Part shown: in pieces, positions 1,482-11,595 of the stretch
Numbering within the stretch: the stretch's first letter is position 1
Layout: each line of letters opens with the position of its first letter
Source: Sphingomonadaceae bacterium
GTDB taxonomy: Bacteria > Pseudomonadota > Alphaproteobacteria > Sphingomonadales > Sphingomonadaceae
DNA: 11,595 nt
Direction of reading: 5' to 3'
Assembly (NCBI GenBank): GCA_019454625.1
Contig: JACFNY010000039.1
Span: 1 to 11,595, forward strand
The notes under the pieces: model-generated
The model's database searches: none
Told to the model about the DNA's origin: nothing
What the model saw: the letters and a program-made list of their open reading frames with translations, nothing else
Program-made: the position numbers and the translations under genes

Positions 1482-2129
1482 ATGGCCAGCCTGCGTAACC
1501 TTGCCGCCTTCCTCACGATGTTCGCCGCGCTGTCGCTCGCCGCGCCAGCCGCCGCGCAATTCTCGGACCGCTACAACTTCTTCAAGGCGGTGAAGGACGG
1601 CGACGTGCTGAAGGTGAAATCGCTGATCGACCAGCCGGGCTCGACGCTGATCGACATGCGCGAGAGCGAATCCGGCGAGATGGCGCTGCACATCGTGACG
1701 CGGCGCCGCGACGTGCCGTGGATGAACTTCCTGATCGCCAACGGCGCCAGCGTGAACGTGCGCGACAAGGACGGCAACACGCCGCTGCACGTCGCCGCGC
1801 AGCTCGGCTTCATCGACGGCATCCAGACGCTCGTGCGCCGCAAGGCCGACGTGAACGCCGCGAACAGCCGGGGCGAGAACCCGCTGATCGTCGCCGTGCA
1901 GCAGAGGAACGCCATGGTGGTGCGCGAGCTTCTGAACGCGGGCGCGAACCCCGATCTCGCCGACCATGTCGCGGGCATGTCGGCGCGCGAATACGCCGAG
2001 CGCGACCGCCGCGCCACCGCGATCGTGCGCATGTTCAAGGACAACGACGCCAAGGCGAAGGCGGACGAGACCAAGACCGACGAGACGAAGCCGGTCACCG
2101 TCCTGCCGCTTCCGAACCCCGGAAACTGA
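1482..2129 (+). CDS. Secreted ankyrin-repeat protein upstream of regB
   Basis: A 215-residue protein with a clear Sec signal peptide (residues 1-25, cleavage expected after APAAA before Gln26), so it should act in the periplasm. It contains about four ankyrin repeats: a degenerate one starting YNFFKAVKDGDVLKV (31-45), then GEMALHIVTRR (65-75), a canonical DGNTPLHVAAQLG (97-109), and RGENPLIVAVQQR (130-142), ending in a divergent AREYAERD repeat. The last 30 residues are low-complexity (Lys, Asp, Glu, Thr, then Pro). Ankyrin repeats bind proteins; the partner is unknown. Start: ATG at 1482 rather than the in-frame TTG at 1449, because only the former puts the signal peptide at the N-terminus. 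It ends 11 bases before regB, so it is probably cotranscribed with regB-regA. A role in redox signalling would be speculation. Confidence 0.85.
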   Translation: MASLRNLAAFLTMFAALSLAAPAAAQFSDRYNFFKAVKDGDVLKVKSLIDQPGSTLIDMRESESGEMALHIVTRRRDVPWMNFLIANGASVNVRDKDGNTPLHVAAQLGFIDGIQTLVRRKADVNAANSRGENPLIVAVQQRNAMVVRELLNAGANPDLADHVAGMSAREYAERDRRATAIVRMFKDNDAKAKADETKTDETKPVTVLPLPNPGN

Positions 2130-2140
2130 CGGGCCGCGGC

Positions 2141-3445
2141 GTGCCGCAGCCGCAATCGCTTCCGCAGGCGCCGCTCCAGCAGGCCCCGCTGCCGACGGCG
2201 CTCGGCACGGCGGGCGTGCGCGTCCGCACGCTCGTCACCATCCGCTGGATGGCGATCGCCGGCCAGTCGATCGCGTTCCTCGTCGTGCACCTGCTGCTCG
2301 GCTTCCAGGTGCCGCTTGCGGCGGCGGGCGCGGCGATCCTCGCCTCCGCGGTGCTCAACATCGGGCTTTCGACGCTCTATGCGCCGACCGCGCGTCTCGT
2401 CGGCGTGGAGGCGCTGCTGCACCTCGCCTTCGACCTGCTCCAGCTCGGCGTCCTCCTCTACCTCACCGGCGGGCTCGCCAACCCGTTCAGCGTGCTGCTC
2501 GTCGTGCCGGTGACGATCTCCGCGACGCTGCTCAGCGCGCGCGCCACGGTGGCGCTGATCCTCATCGCAACGGCGATCCTCGGCGTGCTCTGGAAATGGT
2601 CGCTGCCGCTGCCGTGGGCGGGGCCGCCGCCGGCGCTGCCGCCGATCTACGTGCTCGCCAGCCTCGTCGCGCTCGGCTTCACCGTCGTCTTCCTCGCCAT
2701 CTACGTGCTGCGCGTGTCGCTCGACGCGCGGCGCTGGCAGCAGGCGCTCGTCATCACGCAGGCGGTGCTGGAGCGGGAGACGAAGATGTCGGCGCTCGGC
2801 GCGCTCGCCGCGGCGTCGGCGCACGAACTCGGCGGCCCGCTCGGCACGATCAGTCTCGTCGCGCGCGACCTCGCCGAGACATTGGAAGGCGACCCCGACT
2901 TCGGCGAGGACGTCGCCCTGCTCGACCGGGAGGCGAGGCGCTGCCGCGAGATCATGGCCGATCTCGCACGGCGCGCCGAGGTGGATGCGCCGTTTCCCCA
3001 CGTGCCGCTCCGCGTGCTGCTGCACGAGGTCGCGCAGCCCTTCGAGGCGAGCGGCAAGCGCGTGCACGTCGAGGCTCCCGCGACCGTGGTGGCGCGCACG
3101 CCCGAGCTGCTGCACGGCCTGCTGAACCTCGTCGACAACGCCGTGCGCCACGCGGCGCGCGACGTGCGGATCACGGCGACCACGGATGACGACAGCGTGG
3201 CGCTCGAAATCGCCGACGACGGCGCCGGTTTCCCGCCCGAGTTGCTGCCGCAGCTCGGCGAGCCGTACCTCGGCCCGTCGCGCTCGGCGCGCGGCGGCAC
3301 GGGGCTCGGTATCTTCATCGCCACCACGCTCATCGAGCGCACCGGCGGCCGGGTCGCATTTCGAAATGCCGCAGGCGGCGGCGCGGTAGTCGAAATCGTC
3401 TGGCCGATCGCCTATATCGCGGCAGGAACGGAAGGACAGGCATGA
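2141..3445 (+). CDS. regB: RegB/PrrB/ActS redox-sensing membrane histidine kinase
   Basis: About 434 residues. Six predicted membrane segments lie in the N-terminal half (from IRWMAIAGQS to IYVLRV), with the ubiquinone-linked motif GGLANPF at 110-116. A HisKA domain follows: H-box SAHELGGPLGT with phospho-accepting His228, then Cys268 in ARRCREIM, which matches the redox-active Cys265 of Rhodobacter capsulatus RegB. The ATPase domain shows the N-box (NLVDNAVRHA, Asn333), the DDGAGF box and GGTGLGIFIA. RegB controls RegA phosphorylation in response to redox state (respiration, carbon and nitrogen fixation in relatives). Oddity: H+4 is Gly, where HisKA kinases of the HExx[TN]P type have Thr or Asn. 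The start is uncertain: GTG at 2141 is the likely choice because the open frame upstream overlaps the ankyrin gene; GTG at 2216 is an alternative. It overlaps regA by ATGA. Confidence 0.92.
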   Translation: MPQPQSLPQAPLQQAPLPTALGTAGVRVRTLVTIRWMAIAGQSIAFLVVHLLLGFQVPLAAAGAAILASAVLNIGLSTLYAPTARLVGVEALLHLAFDLLQLGVLLYLTGGLANPFSVLLVVPVTISATLLSARATVALILIATAILGVLWKWSLPLPWAGPPPALPPIYVLASLVALGFTVVFLAIYVLRVSLDARRWQQALVITQAVLERETKMSALGALAAASAHELGGPLGTISLVARDLAETLEGDPDFGEDVALLDREARRCREIMADLARRAEVDAPFPHVPLRVLLHEVAQPFEASGKRVHVEAPATVVARTPELLHGLLNLVDNAVRHAARDVRITATTDDDSVALEIADDGAGFPPELLPQLGEPYLGPSRSARGGTGLGIFIATTLIERTGGRVAFRNAAGGGAVVEIVWPIAYIAAGTEGQA

Positions 3446-4035
3446 CCCCCGATACCAGAACCGGCGAGACCCGGACCGACGAAACCGAAACCGGCGCTCC
3501 GCGTGCCGCCGCAGACCGCACGCTGCTGCTCGTGGACGACGACAACGCCTTTCGCCAGCGGCTCGGCCTGACGCTCGAACGCCGCGGCTACACGGTCGCG
3601 GCCGCCTCCGGCATCGCCGAGGCGCGCGGCATCGCCGCCGAGCTGAAACCGGCCTACGCCGTGCTCGACATGCGGCTCGCCGACGGCAACGGGCTCGATC
3701 TCGTCGGCGAGCTGCGCGCGCTGCGGCCGGGCATCCGCATCGTGATGCTCACCGGCTACGGCAACCTCGCCACCGCCGTCGCGGCGGTGAAGGCCGGCGC
3801 GGTCGATTACCTGCCGAAGCCCGCCGATCCCGACGACATACTGAACGCGCTGCTCGCCCCCGGCGAGGCGAAGCCCGCGCCGCCCGACGAGCCGATGTCC
3901 GCCGACCGCGTGAAATGGGAGCACATCCAGCGCGTCTACGAGCTTTGCGACCGCAACGTCTCCGAAACCGCGCGGCGTCTGAAGATGCACCGGCGGACGC
4001 TGCAACGCATCCTCTCCAAGCGCTCGCCGCGTTAG
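3442..4035 (+). CDS. regA: RegA/PrrA/ActR response regulator
   Basis: A 197-residue DNA-binding response regulator. The receiver domain spans about residues 26-138: acidic pocket Asp32-Asp34, phosphorylation site Asp76 in AVLDMRL, Thr104 in MLTGYG and Lys126 in LPKPAD. A proline-rich linker (about 139-150) leads to a Fis-type helix-turn-helix at 155-194, with the RegA-typical sequence NVSETARRLKMHRRTLQRIL. All key residues are intact. The first 20 residues (rich in Thr, Arg, Glu, Asp) are an extension that I do not recognise. The ATG overlaps the regB stop and has a good ribosome site (GGAAGGACAGG). Thus kinase and regulator are cotranscribed, unlike R. capsulatus where regA follows senC and regB is divergent. 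The stop codon overlaps the stop of mmcB on the other strand. Confidence 0.95.
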   Translation: MTPDTRTGETRTDETETGAPRAAADRTLLLVDDDNAFRQRLGLTLERRGYTVAAASGIAEARGIAAELKPAYAVLDMRLADGNGLDLVGELRALRPGIRIVMLTGYGNLATAVAAVKAGAVDYLPKPADPDDILNALLAPGEAKPAPPDEPMSADRVKWEHIQRVYELCDRNVSETARRLKMHRRTLQRILSKRSPR

Positions 4036-7312: not shown

Positions 7313-7999
7313 TCAATCCGTGCCCGTCTGCTCCCACAGCGGAGTCTTCAGGAGCTTGAGGAAGGCAGCGTGCCGCGCCAGCTCCTCAGGCGTCGCGGCG
7401 TGCGGGCGGGGCGCCACGTAGCGGCGTTCGACGCGGACCGCAACCGTTTCCTCTTGCGCCGCCGCCTGGCCGAGCGACAGGCCGATCTGCCGGCCGCCCG
7501 TCAGCTCCACGTAAACGCGCGCCAGAAGCTGCGCGTCGAGCAGCGCGCCGTGCTTGTCGCGCGCGGTGAGGTCTATGCTGAAGCGGGTGCACAGCGCGTC
7601 GAGCGAATGCTTGGCGCCGGGGAATTTCTTGCGCGCCATGACGAGCGTGTCGCCCACGCGCTCGATCGGGATCTGGTCGTGCCCCGTGTTGCGGAGCTCC
7701 CAGTTGACGAAGCGGCGGTCGAACTCGGCGTTGTGCGCGATGAGCCGCGCGTCGCCCACGAAGGCCACGAACTCGGCCGCGATCGCCGCGAACGTCGGCT
7801 TGTCGGCAAGGAACGCGTCGGAAAGCCCGTGCACCGCCTCGGCCTCGGCGGGCATCGGGCGGCACGGGTTTATGTACGCGTGGAACGTGCGCCCCGTTTC
7901 GATGCGGTTGACGAGTTCGACGCAGCCGATCTCGCAGATGCGATGCCCGTCCGACGGGTCGAGACCCGTGGTCTCGGTGTCGAAGATGACCTCACGCAT
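7313..7999 (-). CDS. dnaQ: DNA polymerase III epsilon subunit (3'-5' proofreading exonuclease)
   Basis: A 228-residue DnaQ of the DEDDh exonuclease family, the proofreading subunit of the replicative polymerase core. Exo[11 protein letters not shown] with Asp7 and Glu9; Exo[14 protein letters not shown] with Asp94; Exo[15 protein letters not shown] with His150 and Asp155. All catalytic residues are present. The C-terminal segment after about residue 175 is divergent, as usual where it contacts the polymerase alpha subunit. Start ATG at 7999 fits the family start; the frame opens at a TTG at 8035 but that adds 12 unrelated residues. The gene starts inside the open reading frame of coaE, which runs 130 bases into dnaQ. 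It is the last gene of the ppsR operon. Confidence 0.93.
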
Positions 8000-9416: not shown

Positions 9417-9952
9417 GTCGGCATCACGCTGCGGGTCCTCAGGTAATCGAGCACGGCCAGAAGCGGCAGGCCGCGAATGGTGAACTGGTCGCCGAGCAGC
9501 GCATCGCCGCAGGCGTCGAGATAGGCGTCCAGAAACGCATCCGAAAAGTCGCGCATGGTGAGCCTTGCGACACCGACGAAACGCCAGACCGCCGTCCCGT
9601 TCTCCGCGATCGCCGCCGCCGACACCAGCCGGTGCGCGCGGCCACGCAGCATCCGGAGCTGAACGGCGAGCGTTTCCCGGTCGGGCGCCTTGTCGATCAG
9701 CGTGCCGTCGTCGAGCGCCACCACGGAGTCGCTGCCGAGCGCCAGCGCCCCCGGCAGCTTCCGCGACACCCTCACCGCCTTCGCCTCGGCGAGCGCGTCC
9801 GCGATCCGGCGCGCGTCCGCGCCTTCGGCGGCGAGCGCGCGCTTCAGTTCGGCCTCGTCGACCATCGGCGGCAGCGCCTCGAAGGGAACGCCTGCCGCCG
9901 TCAGCATCGCCTGCCGCGATGCGCTCGTCGACGCGAGAACGAGTGACGTCAT
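9413..9952 (-). CDS. maf: Maf family nucleotide pyrophosphatase, short of a conserved segment
   Basis: A 179-residue Maf/YhdE-type protein; the family hydrolyses non-canonical or pyrimidine nucleoside triphosphates to monophosphates. Visible: [12 protein letters not shown] with Arg13, Glu33 in VDEAELK, Lys58 in AEAKAVR, Asp75 in [10 protein letters not shown], Lys88 in IDKAPD, and the C-terminal [16 protein letters not shown]. The usual segment with the pattern GxYxIEGxGAxLF, which follows the YLDAC region by about ten residues and precedes the GLPL motif, is missing: residue 154 (Gly) runs directly to Asp155-Gln-Phe-Thr. About 20 residues appear to be lost in frame. This explains the short length (relatives are about 195-200). 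Activity is therefore doubtful. Starts at the ppsR stop (ATGA) and ends at the aroE start (ATGA). Confidence 0.88.
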
Positions 9953-10779
9953 GCCGCCGAACCGTTGGCGTGCGTCTCGGCGCGCTCGTTGTAGAGGTTG
10001 ATGATCGCCGCCGCCGTCTCCTCGATCGAGCGGCGCGACACGTCGATCACCGGCCAGTTGTTGTCGGCGCAGAGCCGCCGCGCCGCCGCGACCTCCTTGG
10101 TCACCACGTCCATGTCGACATAGGCGGTCTCCGGCGCCTGCGCGAGGCTGAGCAGGCGGTTGCGGCGCACCTGCACGAGCCGGTCGGGATTGGTGGTGAG
10201 CCCGACGACCATCGGCTTCGACAGGCGGAACAATTGCTCTGGCGGTCGGCTCGTCGGCACCAGCGGCAGGTTCGCGGTCTTGACGCCCCGGTTGGCGAGG
10301 TAGATCGAGGTCGGCGTCTTCGAGGTGCGCGAGACGCCGATCAGCAGGATGTCGGCTTCCTCCCAGTTGTCGGCGCCCTGCCCGTCGTCGTGGTTCATCG
10401 TGTAGTCGATGGCGGCGACGCGGCGGAAATAGGCCTCGTCCATCTGGTGCTGGCGGCCCGGCCGGGCGGCGGCGCGCTGGCCGAGCACGGTTTGCAGCCC
10501 CTCGATCACGGGATCGAGCACGCCGACCGCCGGCAGCCCCATCGCGCGGCAGCGCGCCTCGAGGTGGGTCCGCATCTCGCCGCTCACCAGCGTGAACAGC
10601 ACGAGGCCGGGGCGCTTGGCGATGTCCATCAGCACGCGGTCGAGGTGGCCCTTCGATCGGACGAGTGGCCAGAAGTGCTTGATCGTCTCGACGTCCTCGA
10701 ACTGTGCGAGTCCGGCTTTCGCAACCGATTCAAGCGTTTCGCCGGTCGAATCGGAGACGAGATGCAAGTGCAGCCGCAT
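9949..10779 (-). CDS. ppsR: PEP synthase / PPDK regulatory protein (DUF299)
   Basis: A 276-residue protein of the DUF299 family, bifunctional serine/threonine kinases and pyrophosphorylases that inactivate and reactivate phosphoenolpyruvate synthase or pyruvate phosphate dikinase. The N-terminus MRLHLHLVSDSTGETL is typical, as are DPVIEGLQTVLG (89-100) and DYTMNHDDGQ (125-134). The P-loop-like motif GVSRTSKTPTSIYLANRG begins at residue 148. Start ATG at 10779 is fixed by a strong ribosome site AGGAGG (10786-10791) 6 bases upstream; the frame is open to 10995 but runs through the intergenic region. It heads the operon ppsR-maf-aroE-coaE-dnaQ and lies beside the probable replication origin; its equivalent in Rickettsia and Caulobacter borders the origin on the side opposite hemE. 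Regulated partner in this organism not in the window. Confidence 0.94.
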   Translation of the reverse strand: MRLHLHLVSDSTGETLESVAKAGLAQFEDVETIKHFWPLVRSKGHLDRVLMDIAKRPGLVLFTLVSGEMRTHLEARCRAMGLPAVGVLDPVIEGLQTVLGQRAAARPGRQHQMDEAYFRRVAAIDYTMNHDDGQGADNWEEADILLIGVSRTSKTPTSIYLANRGVKTANLPLVPTSRPPEQLFRLSKPMVVGLTTNPDRLVQVRRNRLLSLAQAPETAYVDMDVVTKEVAAARRLCADNNWPVIDVSRRSIEETAAAIINLYNERAETHANGSAA

Positions 10780-10803
10780 GTGTCGCCTCCTTTCCGGCGC
10801 TGT

Positions 10804-10812
10804 TGTGGATAA
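10804..10812 (-). promoter_or_regulatory. DnaA box, perfect
   Basis: TGTGGATAA on the plus strand, i.e. TTATCCACA on the minus strand, matches the consensus DnaA box exactly. It lies 25 bases upstream of the ppsR start codon at the left end of the putative origin. DnaA bound here could also affect ppsR transcription. Confidence 0.8.
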
Positions 10813-10936
10813 GCCCCGGACGACTCGCTTAAGGACTCGCGGGATAACGGGCAAGCGGGTGGTCGTGCATCCTTCCACGGGTCGCCACGGGCAGATCATC
10901 CCCAGGTGGACAGTTCCCGCATCGTCTTGTGAATCC

Positions 10937-10945
10937 GGTGGATAA
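10937..10945 (-). promoter_or_regulatory. DnaA box, one mismatch
   Basis: GGTGGATAA on the plus strand, TTATCCACC on the minus, differs from the consensus only at the last position. It sits directly beside the first copy of the GC-rich direct repeat. Confidence 0.6.
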
Positions 10946-10947
10946 GT

Positions 10948-10960
10948 CGCGCCCCGCGCC
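10948..10960 (+). repeat. 13-bp direct repeat in putative oriC, copy 1
   Basis: CGCGCCCCGCGCC, found again exactly at 10975-10987, 27 bases start to start. The copy is adjacent to the DnaA box at 10937-10945. Chance recurrence is possible in GC-rich DNA, but the copies are exact over 13 bases within the origin-like gap. Confidence 0.6.
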
Positions 10961-10974
10961 GCAAACCGGCAGGC

Positions 10975-10987
10975 CGCGCCCCGCGCC
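10975..10987 (+). repeat. 13-bp direct repeat in putative oriC, copy 2
   Basis: Second exact copy of CGCGCCCCGCGCC. Fourteen bases separate it from copy 1; the match does not extend on either side. Confidence 0.6.
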
Positions 10988-11025
10988 TGCGTCATGCTTG
11001 CCTGTGGACTTCACGGGAAACCCCG

Positions 11026-11034
11026 TTATCCCCA
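11026..11034 (+). promoter_or_regulatory. DnaA box, one mismatch
   Basis: TTATCCCCA on the plus strand, differing from the consensus at position 7 only. It lies immediately left of the AT-rich G-free stretch, the usual position for a box from which DnaA opens the duplex, and is inverted relative to the other two boxes. Confidence 0.55.
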
Positions 11035-11035
11035 G

Positions 11036-11072
11036 CCCAACAATCATCCAAATCCATCTATCTATATATTAA
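11036..11072. other. AT-rich, G-free stretch (candidate DNA unwinding element)
   Basis: There is no G on the plus strand in these 37 bases. Bases 11041-11072 are 75% A+T (24 of 32), against a strongly GC-rich surround, ending in TCTATCTATATATTAA. This is the most easily melted segment of the gap and flanks a DnaA box. It may double as the hemE promoter region, as it ends ten bases before the hemE ATG. Confidence 0.6.
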
Positions 11073-11081
11073 GGGAGAGAT

Positions 11082-11595
11082 ATGGGGTCCCGGTCCTTGC
11101 TCGCAGTGCTGAACGGAGAACGGCAATCCGTGCCGCCGGTGTGGTTCATGCGGCAGGCGGGGCGTTATCTCCCGGAGTATCGTGCGCTGCGTGCCGAGAA
11201 GGGGGGGTTTCTCGAACTCGTTTACGACAACGACGCCGCGGCGGAGATCACGCTGCAACCGATCCGGCGCTTCGGCTTCGACGGCGCGATCCTGTTCTCG
11301 GACATCCTGATCGTGCCGCACGCGATGGGCCAGGCGCTGACGTTCACGCCGGGCGAGGGGCCGCAGCTTGCGCCGCCGCTCGTGGAAGCCCGGCTCGAGG
11401 ACCTGCACGCGGCGCCGCAGCATCTGGCTGCCGTTTACGGGACCGTCCGCAAGGTCGCCGCGTTGCTGCCGGGCGAGACCACCTTCCTCGGTTTCGCGGG
11501 CGCACCGTGGACGGTCGCGACCTACATGGTCGCGGGCGAGGGCAGCCGCGATCAGGCCGCGGCGCGGCTGATGGCCTATCGCGAGCCCGCGCGCT
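11082..11595 (+). CDS. hemE: Uroporphyrinogen decarboxylase, 5' half
   Basis: Uroporphyrinogen III decarboxylase of heme synthesis, cytoplasmic; it removes four carboxyl groups to give coproporphyrinogen III. The window holds 171 codons of about 340; the gene continues right. The first family signature is complete, PPVWFMRQAGRYLPEYR (residues 18-34), with Arg24 and Arg28; the catalytic Asp74 is in ILFSDIL; the second signature GFAGAPWTVATYMVAGEG is near the end of the visible part. Start ATG at 11082 has a ribosome site AAGGGAGAGAT directly upstream. It is divergent from ppsR and borders the putative origin, as in Caulobacter. No frameshift or odd residue seen in the visible part. Confidence 0.97.
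   Translation, partial: MGSRSLLAVLNGERQSVPPVWFMRQAGRYLPEYRALRAEKGGFLELVYDNDAAAEITLQPIRRFGFDGAILFSDILIVPHAMGQALTFTPGEGPQLAPPLVEARLEDLHAAPQHLAAVYGTVRKVAALLPGETTFLGFAGAPWTVATYMVAGEGSRDQAAARLMAYREPAR

Follow-up and report, generated by a model that had tools for sequence, protein, structure and literature searches.

Chromosomal origins lying between hemE and a COG1806 gene have been reported in Caulobacter and Rickettsia (PMC1914354), and an oriC on the hemE side has been described for Sphingopyxis granuli and for most of the Sphingomonadaceae held in DoriC (PMC4741004). We analysed a stretch of DNA of 11,595 nucleotides (‘the window’) in which an initial annotation had proposed a hemE-type origin. 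Like the described oriC of S. granuli TFA, the candidate region lies beside hemE within a conserved gene order and combines intergenic DnaA boxes with a putative DNA-unwinding element (DUE), although the two belong to different genera and are likened by description (PMC4741004). Its position between hemE and COG1806 is shared with Caulobacter crescentus Cori and Rickettsia prowazekii ori, and its several DnaA boxes with Cori (PMC1914354). As in the basal unwinding system (BUS), one box lies a few bases from an AT-rich stretch (PMC8287927). Judged by its sequence, the gap is very probably the oriC of a Sphingosinicella-like alphaproteobacterium, an ordinary further example of an origin type known from relatives.

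Gene order around the gap

A 302-bp gap between divergent ppsR and hemE had been annotated, and its coordinates (10780–11081) proved exact: start codons read from the sequence lie at 10779 (minus strand) for ppsR and at 11082 (plus strand) for hemE, and tblastn matches from 109 loci begin at residues 1–9 of ppsR and 1–6 of hemE. An alternative, longer ppsR frame opens at 10995 but was rejected, as the matches of relatives stop short of the extension.

9949–10779, minus strand: ppsR / COG1806 (Kinase-PPPase; Pfam PF03618, E 3.1e-94)
10780–11081, no strand: putative oriC, the hemE–ppsR divergent intergenic region (gene order, boxes, enrichment)
11082–11595, plus strand: hemE, 5′ part only (Pfam PF01208, E 2.1e-56)

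Pfam domains bear out the neighbourhood that had been named, ppsR-maf-aroE-coaE-dnaQ on one side (Kinase-PPPase, Maf, shikimate dehydrogenase for aroE, CoaE and an exonuclease domain for dnaQ) and hemE on the other (URO-D), where the contig end truncates the gene. The source assembly is a draft of 677 contigs, 78% complete, and the window is contig 292; the further claim that it marks the start of the chromosome was dropped, as such a start is a mere numbering convention and the record a draft contig. Because the window ppsR is 95–96% identical to four Sphingosinicella records and the next record reaches only 74%, we regard the organism as Sphingosinicella-like.

Several other features of the window were recorded. 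Counted from the dnaQ methionine nearest the first motif, coaE overlaps dnaQ by 130 nt (7870–7999); an identical overlap occurs in all four Sphingosinicella loci (L002–L005), and among the 76 loci with both motifs the other 72 overlap by at most 88 nt, 54 of these not at all. Elsewhere in it are an ankyrin-repeat protein (1449–2129), then a histidine kinase frame (HATPase_c and a weak HisKA; 1718–3445) and a response regulator (3442–4035) with a weak C-terminal Fis-type match.

DnaA boxes and a putative unwinding element

DnaA boxes were scored as mismatches to TTATCCACA. The three good boxes of the initial annotation were recovered as one perfect box and two with one mismatch, and two weaker ones were found besides.

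10804–10812, plus strand: perfect DnaA box TGTGGATAA, invariant in the window and four Sphingosinicella records
10896–10904, plus strand: weak DnaA box TCATCCCCA, 2 mismatches, within an invariant block
10937–10945, plus strand: DnaA box GGTGGATAA, 1 mismatch (sequence match, congener alignment)
11003–11011, minus strand: TGTGGA core, differing from the full box at 3 positions and unchanged across the genus
11026–11034, plus strand: DnaA box TTATCCCCA, 1 mismatch, adjoining the putative unwinding element
11044–11052, plus strand: weak box TCATCCAAA, 2 mismatches, poorly kept in congeners
11036–11081, no strand: putative DNA-unwinding element, G-free over 11036–11072, 65% AT
10822–10826, no strand: GANTC (GACTC), CcrM-type site, kept in 5/5 sequences
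10834–10838, no strand: GANTC (GACTC), CcrM-type site, GANTC in 5/5, GAGTC in S. soli
10931–10935, no strand: GANTC (GAATC), kept in 4/5, lost in MCMED-G19

Sites with at most two mismatches numbered 18 in the window against 6.1 in shuffles, a count reached in 0/200 shuffles, and five of the 18 fall inside the 302-bp gap. The perfect 9-mer matched three times in the organism's own 2.7-Mb assembly, as often as a reversed control, so that only the clustering of boxes is informative.

The AT-rich, G-free element that had been noted was likewise found, as 37 nt beside hemE and immediately downstream of the 11026 box. No other G-free run in the window comes near it in length (11036–11072; runner-up, 17 nt), and the AT content of 40-mers peaks at 70% in those starting at 11039–11044 (window overall, 30.5%). 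As a hemE–COG1806 intergenic gap with a cluster of DnaA boxes beyond chance and, by composition, a candidate AT-rich unwinding element, the region has the predicted make-up of a hemE-type oriC.

DnaA-trios were sought with a simplified single-box form of the published rule (a DnaA box, then at least three NAN trios within 16 bp). The rule matched once in the window gap, at the box at 10896 (maximum spacer, 16); the box at 11026 had no three NAN trios within 16 bp, and trios were rejected as the mechanism in the window, the pattern being absent from the DUE-side box. In this the gap differs from the BUS, described as a DnaA-box with DnaA-trios (PMC8287927).

Two further regulators were considered in the window gap, with TTAA-N7-TTAA taken by us as the CtrA site motif and WATCAANNNNTTR as the presumed IHF consensus. 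The best CtrA match carries two mismatches, and IHF gave a single one-mismatch match at 11059, inside the AT-rich stretch. CtrA control of the window gap is not supported, all CtrA matches having at least two mismatches, and the IHF site is unconvincing, whereas Cori is described with five CtrA sites and an IHF site (PMC1914354).

Conservation among relatives

Comparison with related species, which the initial annotation had proposed as a check, revealed a conserved, box-rich divergent hemE–ppsR gap in relatives. This arrangement was present in 79/80 named loci, in 30/30 further genome loci (the organism's own contig included; five repeat gaps of the named set) and in 28/29 additional class-wide loci, these being the best-scoring 29 of 99 genomes with a ppsR match in a draw of 144 (45 had none).

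In an alignment of the window with the four Sphingosinicella records, strictly conserved blocks surround the boxes at 10804, 10896, 10937 and 11026 and the TGTGGA core at 11003–11011. All five sequences retain two GANTC sites, one of which has a base change that leaves GANTC intact; four retain the third. The gap is 80–83% identical between the window and the four congeners, more than the fourfold-degenerate sites of ppsR (68–76%) and hemE (54–62%), which suggests selection on this noncoding stretch.

Box clusters were ranked by scoring the gap against the best other 302-bp interval, per contig or sample. The gap scored 9 against at most 4 elsewhere in two same-genus contigs (145 kb of G002:C46 and 200 kb of G004:C5). 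It also led in 360 kb of G006 (7 against 4) and in the 440 kb sampled from G019 (5 against 3); in 400 kb sampled from G013 it scored 6 and one other interval 7. TTATNCMCA boxes in G019 numbered none in the gap and two at 2.12 Mb, 75 bp apart.

Strand polarity and parS around the gap

Because the organism's own genome lies in 677 contigs, in which chromosome-wide skew is unreadable, we used relatives for chromosome-scale tests and treated single-contig genomes as circular. In a one-contig genome of the same order (G036), ppsR lies at base 60 and hemE at the opposite end, so the record starts within the hemE–ppsR gap; of ten stretches sampled per half, all had positive GC skew in one half and all had negative GC skew in the other. 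GC skew in a one-contig genome of the same family (G019) was noise, and we therefore relied there on the polarity of the octamer GGGNAGGG, which we take to be the KOPS motif. In E. coli, KOPS octamers are reported to point from origin to terminus (PMC2680272).

The octamer was distributed 43:1 and 5:35 (plus:minus) over the two arms of G019. It switched strand twice, once between the samples that begin at 470 and 520 kb, an interval containing the gap (506,650–506,974), and once close to the antipode (about 1.89 Mb); finer positions gave one exception, 16 kb from the gap. Counts by side were 25:8 and 6:30 in G036, 14:7 and 6:22 in G006 (within about 180 kb of the gap) and 15:6 and 7:46 in G013 (summed over 20 bins; near the origin polarity is unclear, the first two bins giving 1:2 and 0:1). 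The terminus switch in G013 fell near 1.12 Mb (antipode, 1.05 Mb), and its origin switch was bracketed only, from 2.36 Mb to about 140 kb past the record start. In the same-genus contigs the counts to the left and to the right were 3:24 and 2:1 (G004:C5) and 5:7 and 2:1 (G002:C46), and speak neither for nor against a switch at the gap. Skew was weak in both, T/A skew changed sign at the gap in both, and the distance from the gap to the cumulative GC-skew minimum was 2 kb in G004:C5 and 42 kb in G002:C46. GRGNAGGG and GGGCAGGG agreed with GGGNAGGG in G019 and G036; for GGGGAG, GTGGTG and CTTCTTC, searched in the two same-genus contigs, a consistent switch was not found.

Allowing at most one mismatch to what we take to be the parS core, we found 27 parS-like sites in nine genomes, 19 of them 7–13 kb from the gap and all of these on the hemE side (with distance in G036 counted round the ring). 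Six were on other contigs of two drafts, the organism's own assembly (G000) and G003, and two lay far off (G036 at 1.91 Mb, and G004:C1). Seven of the nine genomes have parS near the gap, at 8.4–10.5 kb in G019, while the sites of the own genome and G003 sit on other contigs; the three parS-like sites of the own genome, on contigs C70 and C563, are expected to join the side of hemE.

The parAB genes have been suggested as an ori anchor, and dnaA is reported not to be conserved near ori in Sphingomonadales (PMC8116508). We rejected dnaA as an origin marker: it lies at 145 kb in G019, 361 kb from the gap, and on a separate contig from the gap in G002 and G004. It was not found in the organism's own draft assembly.

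Motifs in sphingomonad gaps

Motifs were counted in three sets of gaps. Before counting, L042 (without a hemE match) and L001 (the organism's own contig) were dropped and five identical gaps merged. The 97-gap sphingomonad set, with 50 shuffles each, excludes L105–L111, which share the order but belong to other families; a 99-gap set adds L213 and L214 (10 shuffles). The 33 other-family gaps are L105–L111 plus 26 from the class-wide draw, L239 being excluded for want of a hemE match.

The 97 sphingomonad gaps held 66 occurrences of TTATCCACA (0.2 in shuffles) and 288 of TGTGGA (15.4 in shuffles). Strict E. coli boxes were rejected as sole criterion, since TTATNCNCA is missing from 38/97 gaps and CTGTGGA present in 95/97. 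The single-box trio rule matched in 41/97 gaps (7.4 in shuffles, maximum 12), and 14/48 trio-matched boxes lay within 78 bp of hemE. CCWACWA beside an AT-rich stretch was rejected, being found in 59/97 gaps but in 34 with the reversed control. One locus on a contig labelled Brevundimonas sp. isolate N6CT (L007) has a sphingomonad-type gap, with ppsR and hemE 71–72% identical to those of the window; the contig is possibly misassigned.

GANTC occurred 531 times in the 97 gaps, compared with 152.6 in shuffles (maximum 177), 534 times in the 99 gaps (160 in shuffles) and 88 times in the 33 other-family gaps (64.7 in shuffles, maximum 81). The proportion of other intervals with a GANTC count at least equal to that of the gap was 0.08% in G006, 0.3% in G013 and 0.09% in G019; in all of these, and in G002 and G004, the maximum elsewhere (5–7) tops the count of the gap. 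Enrichment in the organism's own genus was rejected as weak, 8.7% (G002) and 1.4% (G004) of intervals being as rich.

TTAAC was depleted in the 97 gaps (9 versus 28.4 in shuffles). Exact TTAA-N7-TTAA was found in 1/99 sphingomonad and 4/33 other-family gaps. With at most one mismatch it was found in 14/99 sphingomonad gaps (16 matches versus 4.0 in shuffles, maximum 8) and stood at chance in the other families (8 versus 8.4). Since these one-mismatch matches exceed chance, we do not favour calling sphingomonad gaps CtrA-free.

No exact IHF match occurred in the 99 gaps; one-mismatch matches were present in 60/99 (87 versus 17.6 in shuffles). An element CTGTTGGCA is almost one-stranded, with 56 matches against 1 on the opposite strand, mostly 106–132 bp from hemE; read as AGTCAAGCTGTTG, it is one mismatch from the IHF consensus. 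A fixed GTCAAGCTGTTGGCAA-like element stands about 110 bp from hemE in sphingomonad gaps, but neither the window nor its congeners have it in exact form. In an alignment, what the window's genus carries looks like a decayed CTGTTGGCA element.

Discussion

The proposal of a hemE-type chromosomal origin is supported by the neighbourhood, the boxes and the DUE-like element of the window, and by parS proximity in relatives and opposite polarity in four relatives of other genera. DnaA would occupy the perfect box close to ppsR, both boxes with one mismatch and the weaker ones. Starting from the box at 11026, the complex formed beside hemE could then melt the AT-rich, G-free stretch at 11036–11081. 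Helicase would be loaded at the melted stretch and forks would depart both ways, with ParB, at parS sites on the hemE side (about 7.5–10 kb off in three same-genus relatives), presumably segregating the new origins.

DnaA can regulate genes, and the promoters of both hemE and ppsR are needed in this gap, which might therefore be a divergent promoter region only, with DnaA acting there as a transcription regulator. We consider this very improbable: it leaves unexplained the multiple spaced boxes with their AT-rich element, the conservation of the gap above fourfold-degenerate sites, and, in relatives, the clustering of parS near the gap and the opposite polarity of its two sides. The gap may still serve as a promoter region as well as an origin. 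In a second alternative, replication starts at some other site, such as dnaA or a different box pair, and the gap survives only as a conserved relic. In its favour, strict box content varies among relatives, G019 lacks strict boxes in the gap but has two of them paired at 2.12 Mb, and the sampled part of G013 holds one better box cluster. We nonetheless find it scarcely credible, since polarity in G019 switches around the gap (507 kb) and the antipode, not at 2.12 Mb or dnaA (145 kb), and its parS lies 8.4–10.5 kb from the gap.

With the gap read as oriC, its control in the family can be considered. Caulobacter and its near relatives are reported to carry several GANTC motifs in the origin (PMC3973325). 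In the literature on CtrA and GANTC that we covered (PMC8116508, PMC2877005, PMC3973325) we found no description of GANTC density in sphingomonad origins, though one may exist elsewhere. One speculative reading, which we think unlikely, is that sphingomonad origins keep the hemE–ppsR address while CcrM methylation state, not CtrA, gates initiation. In this reading the switch would consist of dense GANTC and the fixed, IHF-like GTCAAGCTGTTGGCAA about 110 bp from hemE, with few or no exact CtrA sites of the type by which the Caulobacter origin is silenced. The window's genus, in which GANTC sites are few and the element decayed, would then stand apart as divergent. Such a switch is made less probable by the excess over chance of one-mismatch CtrA matches in sphingomonad gaps, and by exact CtrA sites being uncommon (4/33) in other families too.

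Placing oriC in a genus for which we found only draft records makes it possible to orient contigs and to estimate growth from coverage. In G019, GGGNAGGG polarity and parS locate the origin despite a GC skew that is noise. More broadly, sphingomonad origins are rich in GANTC, exact CtrA sites in them are rare, and Sphingomonas melonis is reported to grow no worse after losing ctrA (PMC8116508), which together suggest a question about how replication is timed in sphingomonads.
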